Source: Planctomycetota bacterium (GTDB lineage: Bacteria > Planctomycetota > Phycisphaerae > Sedimentisphaerales > Anaerohalosphaeraceae). From it: a stretch of DNA of 50,983 nt. Both the position numbers and the translations under genes were made by a program. Position 1 is the first letter of the stretch; every line of letters begins with the position of its first letter. The notes below the pieces were generated by a model. It ran no database searches. It was not told where the DNA came from and worked only from the letters and a program-made list of their open reading frames with translations. Of this stretch, positions 24,208 through 27,026 are shown piece after piece. The stretch covers positions 1-50,983 of the forward strand of contig VGXU01000013.1 of assembly GCA_016873215.1 (NCBI GenBank). Direction: 5' to 3'.

Positions 24208-25497
24208 TCAGCTTTGCGTGCCGCTTTTGAGCTTGGTTCGAAGACAAAGCTGCACCAGTTCGTCCACCTGCGCATGAAGTTTATCGATTTCATTGGCCCT
24301 GAGCGTTTCTTCCATCAGCTTGGCCTTTTCGGTGAATACCGGAAATCCGGCAAATCCGCCCAGCCCTTTCAGCGCGTGAACCTTAAACGCAAAATCCTTC
24401 ATATCGCCCTTTTCGTAGGCGCCTTTAATCTCCTCCACCCGATTCGGCAGATTGTCCACAAACGTTTCGATGGCCTTCTGGTAATCCGAATCGCCTTCAA
24501 GAAAAGAAAATATCTCGCCGCCCTGATCGGCCGTGTGAACCTGTCGAATCCGCTCGACAACCCGTCCCAGCTTGCGTTCCAGCTTTTTGCGGTCAACGGG
24601 TTTGGTGATGCAATCATCGCAGCCCGCGCCCAGGACCGCCAATTCGTCGGATTTCTGCACGGCGGCCGTCAGCGCGAAAATCGTAGTTTTGGTATTCATT
24701 CCCTCGGCTCGAATCCGCTGTGTCGCCTCTATCCCGTTCATCACCGGCATTTGAACATCCATCAGGATAACATCAAACACTTCCTTTTGACATAAATCCA
24801 CCGCTTCCTGTCCATTGGCACAGACGCTCGCCTGGTATCCCATCTTTTTGAGCAGGACCTCCAGCAGCATGCGGTTTTCCTCCACATCGTCCACGATCAG
24901 AATACGAACGTCGAGACCTTGCTGTACCGTCGAAGGCTGTGATTCATCGACGGGCTGGGAAACAAGCTTTGGCGATGGCGTTGCTGAAATCTCTTTCGGC
25001 GCTTCCTGCCGCAGGGGAATCGAGAAAGTGAATTTTGTGGTTTTGCTGTCGGCGTCTTCACAGACTAATTTCCCACCCAAAAGGCTGACTAATTTGGACG
25101 TCATACGAAGCGACATTGCCATATCACTGCCTGCCATTTCCTGCGACCAGTTCCCCGCCGGCACATCCAGGTCAAGAACCTGCGATATTTCATAAGGATC
25201 CATCGCATCCCCGGTATCTTCCACGCAAAATATCATTTGAGGTGCGTCTTGAGTCTGCGCGGCATCAATTCCCAGGTGAACAGTAACACTGCCCTGGTCG
25301 GTTCTGCGAACCGCCTGATCGGCCAGTGTCACCAGAACCTGGCTCAGCTTGGTTTTGTCGCTGTAAAAACTGTCCGGAAGGTCGTCGGACAGCTCGATAA
25401 GAAATGCAATTTTTTTATGTTGGGCCGCCGCGGCAATGGCCTCCATCGCTGTATCCAGAAATCCTTTGGGTTGAAGCCGATTTTGGATAAAAGACAT
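24208..25497 (-). CDS. Degenerate HATPase - receiver - HPt signalling protein
   Basis: About 429 residues from the ATG at 25497, which has AAGGA 8 bases upstream (an ORF start at 25626 lacks one). Order of domains: a histidine-kinase ATPase-like region (about 10-165), a receiver (about 195-310; RILIVDDVEENR, phospho-acceptor Asp247 in VILMDVQMP, Lys in ITKPVD), and an HPt domain (about 330-425; His374 in VHALKGLGG). No sensor and no H-box/DHp helix precedes the ATPase. The ATPase motifs are eroded: the N-box asparagine is Gln61, and the G2 box reads GSDMAMSL where GxGLGL is expected, although DTG of G1 remains. It is probably a phosphorelay receiver/relay with a pseudo-kinase module. Confidence 0.82.
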   Translation of the reverse strand: MSFIQNRLQPKGFLDTAMEAIAAAAQHKKIAFLIELSDDLPDSFYSDKTKLSQVLVTLADQAVRRTDQGSVTVHLGIDAAQTQDAPQMIFCVEDTGDAMDPYEISQVLDLDVPAGNWSQEMAGSDMAMSLRMTSKLVSLLGGKLVCEDADSKTTKFTFSIPLRQEAPKEISATPSPKLVSQPVDESQPSTVQQGLDVRILIVDDVEENRMLLEVLLKKMGYQASVCANGQEAVDLCQKEVFDVILMDVQMPVMNGIEATQRIRAEGMNTKTTIFALTAAVQKSDELAVLGAGCDDCITKPVDRKKLERKLGRVVERIRQVHTADQGGEIFSFLEGDSDYQKAIETFVDNLPNRVEEIKGAYEKGDMKDFAFKVHALKGLGGFAGFPVFTEKAKLMEETLRANEIDKLHAQVDELVQLCLRTKLKSGTQS

Positions 25498-25937
25498 TCT
25501 GTCATTCCTTATGTAAATGATGTGTCTTATTGAACCGTCTGAAAAAATTCCCTTAGACGGGTCGTTAGTATCTTCTATCGGGCAATGGACAAAATCACTT
25601 AATCGCGGATTTCGCAATGATTTCATAAATCGTACACCTATTCACTATTTGTCAACCTCTTAACTCCGGTTTCTTCTCCGCCCTCTCAAAATCGATTTTT
25701 CGCCGGGAAAAACCTCTCCTGCCGGAAAATTGATAATGGACCCGTATCCAAACAGACGAAATCTTAATAGAAGATAAAAAGGAACAAACCCATGGCCAAT
25801 GCAAGGTCCTATAACTTGCGAAAAAGAAGGAGGTTGTGAAACCGGCTCCAGGGGATTATAATAGCCGTGATTTATTCGTGCAGGATGTGTTTCATAGAGA
25901 AATGAAAAGTTCATATTCAAGATGAAAGGGTTTTGTT
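25498..25937. other. Divergent intergenic region
   Basis: 440 bases between two divergently transcribed genes. It holds a clear plus-strand promoter (25834-25862), a minus-strand TTGACA at 25650-25655 with a poorly spaced TACGAT, and an inverted repeat CCGTCT/AGACGG at 25535-25560 in the minus-strand leader. A short ORF at 25660-25920 shows no family features and I do not count it as a gene. Confidence 0.45.
25834..25862 (+). promoter_or_regulatory. Promoter of the PIN/TRAM membrane protein gene
   Basis: TTGTGA, 17 bases, then a consensus TATAAT, 75 bases before the ATG at 25938. It is one of the best promoter matches in the window. Confidence 0.6.
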
Positions 25938-27026
25938 ATGTTATTATATTTTATCCGCTTTCTGTTTTTTGTCACAGCCGCATCGGTATTATTGGTGGGA
26001 TTGAACGCCACCGCTAAAACAGAACCGGACATTGCGGTGTTCATCGTCGGGCTGGGAATTTGCATTCTGGCGATAGTTGTCGAATGGCTGACACCAAAAA
26101 AATCCCTGACCGCACTGGCAGGCATATTCTTCGGCCTGCTGGTCGGAATACTCATGAGTTGGGCAATGAAGCCGATTATTGAGATGATTAATCTCATCTA
26201 TAATCTGCAGATTCCAGAGCCGACGCTGCGGATGGTAATATGGATGACGGGGATGTGCATTTGCTATTTGATAATCAGTATCGTCATCCGCACGAAGGAC
26301 GACATCCGCTTCGTCATTCCATACGTGGAATTTTCCCGGCAAATCAAGGGCCTGCGTCCGATGGTGCTGGATACCTCGGTCATAATCGACGGACGTATCG
26401 CGGACATCGCACAGACGCGCTTTTTCGATTCCCCGCTGATAGTGCCGCGCTTCGTTCTTAATGAGCTACAGCTCATCGCCGACTCCGCCGACAAAATGAA
26501 GCGCAATCGCGGACGACGTGGCCTTGACATGCTCAACAAAATCCAGCACACGCCCGCCGTCGAGGTAATCATTGATGACACCCCACCGCCCGGCGTGGAA
26601 GAAAAAGCGGGCGTGGACCAAAAACTCGTCGCTTTCACAAAACAATGCAACGGCAGACTTGTCACCAACGATTACAATCTCAACAAAGTCGCTCAGGTTC
26701 GCGGCGTCGATGTCATCAATATTAACGACCTGGCCAACTCCGTCAAAACCGTCACCCTGCCCGGTGAATTGATGCAGGTCAAAATTATGCGCCTCGGCGA
26801 GGAAGCCACGCAGGGCGTCGGTTATCTCGAAGACGGAACAATGGTCGTCGTCGAAGGCGCCCACGACAGACTCGGCCAGGCAATCCAGTTCACCGTCACC
26901 AGCGCCCTGCAGACCTCGGCCGGCAGAATGATTTTCGGCAAAATGGAAGACTCCGGCTCATCCTCAGGCGAAAACGGATACCGCAACAGGGGCTACCAGC
27001 AAACCCGGACTCCGCGGAAATACTGA
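25938..27026 (+). CDS. PIN/TRAM-domain membrane protein (YacL-like)
   Basis: 362 residues. Four hydrophobic segments fill the first 115 residues. A PIN nuclease domain follows, with the acidic residues in place: MVLDTSVIIDGRIADI, LNELQLIAD, VDQKLVAF and RLVTNDYNL. The last part (about 275-340; LPGELMQVKIMRLGEEATQGVGYLEDGTMVVVEGA) is a TRAM RNA-binding domain, and the tail is Gly/Ser/Arg-rich. This is the Bacillus YacL architecture, expected to be a membrane-bound ribonuclease, although the target is not known. GAAAGG precedes the ATG. The C-S lyase gene begins 10 bases after it. Confidence 0.9.
   Translation: MLLYFIRFLFFVTAASVLLVGLNATAKTEPDIAVFIVGLGICILAIVVEWLTPKKSLTALAGIFFGLLVGILMSWAMKPIIEMINLIYNLQIPEPTLRMVIWMTGMCICYLIISIVIRTKDDIRFVIPYVEFSRQIKGLRPMVLDTSVIIDGRIADIAQTRFFDSPLIVPRFVLNELQLIADSADKMKRNRGRRGLDMLNKIQHTPAVEVIIDDTPPPGVEEKAGVDQKLVAFTKQCNGRLVTNDYNLNKVAQVRGVDVININDLANSVKTVTLPGELMQVKIMRLGEEATQGVGYLEDGTMVVVEGAHDRLGQAIQFTVTSALQTSAGRMIFGKMEDSGSSSGENGYRNRGYQQTRTPRKY

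Follow-up and report, generated by a model that had tools for sequence, protein, structure and literature searches.

A histidine kinase requires the histidine of a DHp domain and an Mg-ATP site, which is built by the N box and the G2 loop; further along a relay, the aspartate of a receiver (REC) and the histidine of an HPt domain exchange phosphate. The window analysed here, a stretch of 50,983 nucleotides from a Planctomycetota genome (G000; 2.69 Mb, 99.86% complete), carries a gene for a protein with a degenerate CA domain, a receiver and an HPt, and it raises the question of what such a protein does and why its CA domain is still there. Because the CA looks dead and the phosphate-passing sites of REC and HPt are intact, the protein probably relays the signals of other kinases. 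We consider it likely that it is a soluble, non-kinase phosphorelay intermediate fed by such kinases, in which the pseudo-CA has been kept for docking or regulation. The features on which the argument draws are as follows.

24208..25497, minus strand: complete gene, 429 amino acids, pseudo-CA, REC and HPt; stop codon 24208-24210
25003..25497, minus strand: pseudo-HATPase (CA), residues 1-165 (Pfam HATPase_c; model pLDDT; match to RetS)
25315..25317, minus strand: codon of Gln61, at the N-box Asn position (Asn in 43 of 44 homologues, Gln in nine of nine short members)
25147..25149, minus strand: Trp117, invariant in the nine short members, mostly T, I or V in canonical homologues
25099..25125, minus strand: former G2 box, residues 125-133, DMAMSLRMT, with no glycine (ungapped register, by eye)
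24907..25002, minus strand: linker, residues 166-197, disordered and fast-changing (pLDDT <50 at 170-191; low identity between genera)
24562..24906, minus strand: receiver, residues 198-312, border set by us (Pfam Response_reg; D204, D247, T277 and K299 present)
24757..24759, minus strand: Asp247, receiver phospho-acceptor (Asp in 44 of 44 homologues and in 21 aligned family members)
24211..24510, minus strand: HPt, residues 330-429, border set by us (Pfam Hpt; helical in the model)
24376..24378, minus strand: His374 (HALKGLGGFAGF), HPt phospho-acceptor, invariant in 21 aligned family members
25938..27026, plus strand: divergent neighbour gene, PIN/TRAM-like, found in 14 of 20 relatives' loci

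The frame runs on the minus strand from an ATG at 25497 to its stop codon, and Pfam recognizes Response_reg (8.9e-28), HATPase_c (5.3e-9) and Hpt (1.6e-8) in the product, all above their cut-offs. An in-frame ATG at 25626 offers an alternative start that would add 43 residues; in the resulting 472-residue version Pfam again finds these three domains and, at E <= 10, no HisKA, so no upstream start supplies a DHp. The start at 25497 is preferred because the orthologues of G001 and G002, the two closest, begin at the matching residue, right behind a stop codon. A DHp-supplying upstream start, which the preliminary description of this DNA had named as a way in which its reading could fail, is ruled out by the HisKA-free frame and these start sites, and its claim that the product has no DHp holds. 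The CA begins at about residue 6, and CA, linker, REC and HPt occupy all 429 residues, which apparently leaves no place for a membrane anchor and periplasmic domain. Set against a tripartite hybrid kinase (DHp-CA-REC-HPt), the protein lacks the DHp His, the N-box Asn and the G2 glycines and retains the REC Asp and HPt His. Scans for promoters and terminators around the gene gave chance-level results.

We read the ATP site from an alignment (A1) of the window protein with 44 homologues out of the 80 loci found. The two N-box asparagines, each present in 43 of the 44, are replaced by Thr57 and Gln61, and the second G1 glycine, likewise present in 43, by Ala98; the homologue without an Asn at 61 is most likely L038, a protein in which the CA domain is absent. 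The G2 positions 123, 125 and 127 hold glycine in 43 to 44 of the 44 homologues. MAFFT places residue 131 opposite a gap and leaves Gly123 as the sole surviving G2 glycine, and in an ungapped register set by eye GTGLGLAIS lies opposite DMAMSLRMT (125-133), so that all three glycines are lost. Asp94 and Gly96 of G1 are kept. The receiver has D204, D247, T277 and K299 in place, and the HPt has H374. With the G2 glycines and the two N-box asparagines gone from the CA, and no DHp His in the chain, the protein would be expected to form no phospho-histidine of its own. The substitution at Gln61, the G2 reading GSDMAMSL (residues 123-130) and the intact Asp247 and His374 had all been described from the sequence beforehand, and both the residues and their numbering prove correct.

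The same breakage is found in all nine short members of the family, which comprise the window protein, two from other genomes of its genus (g1) and six from genomes of a second genus (g2). Gln61 is present in nine of nine, and neither an Asn at 57 nor the G2 triad in any; Gly98 survives in two, position 98 being free to vary. Since Asp94 and Gly96 are kept in all nine, some nucleotide binding may have survived. The short members also have in common four residues absent from canonical homologues, namely Arg65 (Phe in 42 of 44 homologues), Trp117, Ala127 (Gly in 43 of 44) and Arg131. Canonical N and G2 boxes in homologues, which would have spoken against the preliminary description, occur in none of the short members and are confined to distant hybrid kinases and the outgroup G036. 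The frame is uninterrupted in all nine, and HATPase_c scores above the Pfam cut-off in eight, with G030 below it.

How far this family extends was assessed with a REC-HPt profile built from 21 members, with which 161 genomes of the order were searched. Thirty genomes match at 1e-45; 23 of them form a distinct group with values of at most 7e-88, and the best of the rest lies at 4e-74. Twenty-two of these 23 belong to the window's taxonomic family (22 of its 39 genomes listed) and one, G036, to another; a phylum-wide check of 392 evenly drawn genomes, few of them from the window's family, returned four of the same members at 1e-60. Strong members occur one per genome, and every one of the 21 that were aligned keeps the REC Asp and the HPt His (G013 and G020 lie outside the alignment). 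In G022 (L128) the HPt motif reads HALKSLG and is followed directly by a three-residue deletion, unlike the other 20 aligned members.

What precedes the REC-HPt part varies widely. Nine of the 23 members have the pseudo-CA-REC-HPt architecture of the window protein, and one (G026, L126) has a long sensor-PAS-pseudo-CA-REC-HPt form, whose CA has Gln at the N box, falls below the Pfam cut-off and shows no G1 motif by eye. Eight have a DHp and no CA (L129, L131, L132, L134, L135, L130, L137 and L026), three (G010, G022 and G028) have neither domain by Pfam, and one (G020) is cut by a contig end. Only the outgroup G036 has DHp and CA complete, the sole complete kinase core among the readable members; its H box lies 504 residues from REC, versus 102-112 in the seven DHp-only members measured. 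At the H box of the DHp-only forms stands His in G005, G007, G011, G016 and G019, Tyr in G012 (whose HisKA falls just below the Pfam cut-off) and Arg in G021 and G013 (the latter read by eye, outside the Pfam run), so that even these forms, in three cases of eight, are losing the phospho-site. The long G026 protein, which keeps sensor and PAS regions, has a coiled segment where the DHp would be expected and looks like an intermediate form with a still more degenerate CA. Orthology of the short proteins with longer ones whose kinase cores broke in other ways is thus established, and the retention of REC-HPt across the family while DHp or CA was lost in different manners argues for a relay that is not a kinase.

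The neighbour gene, which we take to be YacL-like, accompanies family members in several genera, long-form ones included; several of the other relatives' loci are short contigs, and in G005 the gene lies about 4.4 kb from the family member. It is probably a plain marker of synteny and orthology that stands outside the mechanism.

Because G036 has a complete core, the simplest reading of these architectures is that the ancestor was a complete kinase, which would then have suffered differing losses; alternatively, a CA may have been lost and later regained in the clade of genera g1, g2 and g13. That clade is well supported in REC-HPt trees of 30 rows (100/98) and 23 rows (99/98), the former with long branches among its outgroup rows. 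In both trees the long-form genus g13 is the partner of the window's genus (85/85 and 81/79), and if this grouping is right there were two truncations. The AU test nevertheless does not reject a single clade of all short forms (p-AU 0.30 with REC-HPt and 0.253 with the neighbour gene), nor one made up of every DHp-only row plus G010 and G020 (0.11 and 0.224). The sensor and PAS region of G026 (631 residues) matches four of four long-form genomes, at 50-59% identity in two and 23-25% in two, and has no match at 1e-5 in the nine short-form genomes, which speaks against a sensor half encoded elsewhere in them. A giant open frame in one relative proved to be only a run of N.

An AlphaFold2 model run on A1 has a mean pLDDT of 86.8 and a pTM of 0.48, so the arrangement of the domains is left undefined. 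By ten-residue block the pLDDT of the CA is 80-97, except at the former lid (61 at 111-120) and at 161-170 (75), and it drops below 50 at residues 170-191; the dead CA is thus predicted to fold well. With the whole chain as query, the leading Foldseek match was full-length ShkA, an active hybrid kinase (417 columns, rmsd 18.3), followed by RetS. VIA-align, which merely re-ranks the Foldseek matches, placed RetS on top (Z 22.8, 1.8 A, 161 residues aligned); among the matches listed, ETR1 (Z 20.5) is the only other CA, most are receivers, and none falls on the HPt part alone. A PDB sequence search with residues 1-165 also returned RetS first (1.4e-10), followed by 7z8n as the next non-RetS chain (4.6e-8), ETR1 (1.3e-5) and HK853 (2.5e-4). 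In a control search with the canonical CA of G036, 29 other distinct sequences came ahead of RetS (best 6e-22; RetS 4.8e-8). A profile of the nine short-form CAs gave a tie between RetS and 7z8n.

With RetS as the nearest solved structure of the CA, the protein might be an antagonist of the same kind, one that binds a hybrid kinase and removes or blocks its phosphate, so that REC-HPt would serve as a sink and not as a forward relay. RetS itself draws phosphate from GacS to its own REC2 and also keeps GacS from autophosphorylating, according to the accessible text of PMC5992135. It does so, however, with a DHp, which the window protein lacks, and a pure sink would need no HPt, yet the HPt is strictly kept; we regard this role as rather unlikely.

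Substitution rates in the CA were compared by Nei-Gojobori counts on our domain borders over the 36 pairs of short members, five of which have a CA dS <1.2. In the two closest pairs, dN/dS for CA, linker, REC and HPt is 0.07, 0.52, 0.04 and 0.03 (G001-G002, CA dS 0.85) and 0.07, 0.11, 0.06 and 0.03 (G018-G027, CA dS 0.45). The values for CA, REC and HPt are 0.16, 0.06 and 0.02 in G018-G025, 0.15, 0.08 and 0.00 in G027-G025, and 0.41, 0.10 and 0.06 in G027-G030. CA dS exceeds 1.2 or is saturated in the other 31 pairs, where the highest CA dN/dS listed is 0.62 (G000-G030, at a near-saturated dS of 1.36). Identity in the linker is 0-32% across the 18 pairs between the two short-form genera. These CA values point to purifying selection on the dead domain, which over longer distances is clearly less constrained than REC and HPt and which does not evolve as a pseudogene would. 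Together with the domain anatomy, the loss of the same catalytic residues in two genera and the intact Asp and His, this selection is established by our data.

The weaker constraint nonetheless fits a view of the CA as a vanishing remnant, with REC-HPt working alone as a plain phosphotransfer protein. The faster change of the CA relative to REC and HPt, reaching 0.41 among the pairs with dS <1.2, speaks for this, as do the three members without DHp and CA and, more distantly, the frames of 250-294 residues with little beyond REC-HPt in G039, G054 and G050. We think it unlikely, given that the two closest pairs have a CA dN/dS of 0.07, that 24 CA positions are invariant over two genera in the nine short members (the new Trp117 and Arg131 included) and that the frame has stayed intact in each of them.

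Alternatively, the pocket of the pseudo-CA could bind another small ligand and thereby gate the relay. The CckA CA has been solved with c-di-GMP (title of PDB 5idm), Gln53, Thr66, Asp94 and Gly96 are invariant in the nine short members, and the equally invariant Trp117 and Arg131 align close to where the lid and the G2 loop used to be; position 98 varies freely, and we hold such a gate to be quite improbable. That the CA is instead active in trans on the DHp of another protein, as the occurrence of both halves in one family and the kept Asp94 might suggest, is highly improbable, since both N-box asparagines and all G2 glycines are lost in nine of nine short members, three DHp-only members have Tyr or Arg in place of the DHp His, and the two halves sit in different genomes, strong members occurring one per genome.

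The window's own genome offers a plausible setting for the preferred reading, that of a relay fed by other kinases. Pfam finds 15 HisKA matches and 16 receivers in it and, at E <= 1, a single Hpt, that of the window gene, although HPt-like proteins missed by Pfam could exist. Two hybrid kinases with canonical boxes and a C-terminal receiver, the frames C45 (L178, 620 residues) and C10 (L179, 1161 residues), have no HPt and could therefore plausibly take part in a relay that runs through His374; a third frame, C7 (437 residues), has its receiver at the N terminus. Ordinary kinases could feed the protein too, because it has a receiver of its own. Hpt matches occur at E <= 0.01 in 55 of 59 genomes, one to seven in each, and since most of the relatives among them have more than one, the sole-HPt state is not general. 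In G019 and G036 the single Hpt is likewise that of the family member, in assemblies that are only 73% and 84% complete.

We propose that the window protein descends from a full hybrid sensor kinase and that the DHp of a separate sensor kinase would phosphorylate Asp247 of its receiver. From there the phosphate would move to the HPt, at His374, and then either reach the receiver of an output regulator or travel backwards, with the protein acting as a sink. The pseudo-CA would serve as a protein-binding or regulatory domain and, in the simplest case, dock on a partner kinase in the manner of RetS and GacS. The preliminary description had likewise suggested a relay in which the dead ATPase serves regulation or docking: that the protein is a relay and not a kinase is well supported, and the docking or regulatory role is argued for indirectly, by the constraint on the CA, its own invariant Trp117 and Arg131 and, by analogy, its likeness to RetS.

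A bolder version of this relay model, which we advance tentatively and find possible though doubtful, would have the whole family turned from signal generator to phosphorelay hub as different genera dismantled it in opposite ways (loss of the CA with the DHp kept; loss of DHp and sensor with a pseudo-CA kept; or loss of both) around an intact REC-HPt, which in the window's species would be the sole HPt, with a neofunctionalized pseudo-CA picking the kinases that feed it. To our knowledge, pseudo-histidine kinases are usually encountered singly. Here, neighbouring genera keep opposite halves of a broken kinase core around an unchanged REC-HPt, and these orthologues form a natural series for studying how a sensor kinase becomes a relay and why a dead CA is kept. 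The window's genome makes a simple test case, in which the only detectable HPt stands beside two hybrid kinases that have none.

ChpT, Spo0B and PhyT transfer phosphate through a DHp-type histidine. The window protein has no such residue, and its transfer His sits in a Pfam Hpt domain. These three are described as degenerated histidine kinases acting as phosphotransferases in the accessible part of PMC5898713. A PeerJ survey counts 312 RRHPt proteins with receiver and HPt in one chain, the same combination as here, and in its accessible part mentions no pseudo-CA for the class (PMC4558063). In the accessible text of the literature on RetS, RcsD, ChpT-type and RR-HPt proteins (with PMC9981736 and PMC11210211 as context) we found no description of a DHp-less pseudo-CA-REC-HPt protein, and the CC0, CC BY and CC BY-SA part of PMC returned no report of this REC-HPt family and no papers for "Sedimentisphaerales" with "histidine kinase".

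RetS of Pseudomonas aeruginosa, as described in the accessible text of PMC5992135, has a degenerate HATPase without G boxes, does not autophosphorylate and carries receiver domains. The window protein shares with it a degenerate HATPase fold and a receiver, its G1 being only partly lost (Asp94 and Gly96 kept); RetS, in contrast, possesses a DHp (HisKA) together with two or more receivers, versus no DHp, one REC and an HPt here, and in the sequence alignment has Asn opposite Gln61 and Ser opposite Thr57. RcsD combines an inactive histidine-kinase region with an HPt that passes phosphate on (accessible part of PMC13317618), and the lost CA boxes and HPt His of the window protein appear to reproduce that combination. 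RcsD, of the enterobacterial Rcs phosphorelay, has two transmembrane helices, a periplasmic domain and RcsC as its receiver partner, whereas the window protein has no membrane part, no DHp and a receiver of its own. What this family adds to the precedents of RcsD, RetS and ChpT is the complementary dismantling of one kinase core in sister genera.
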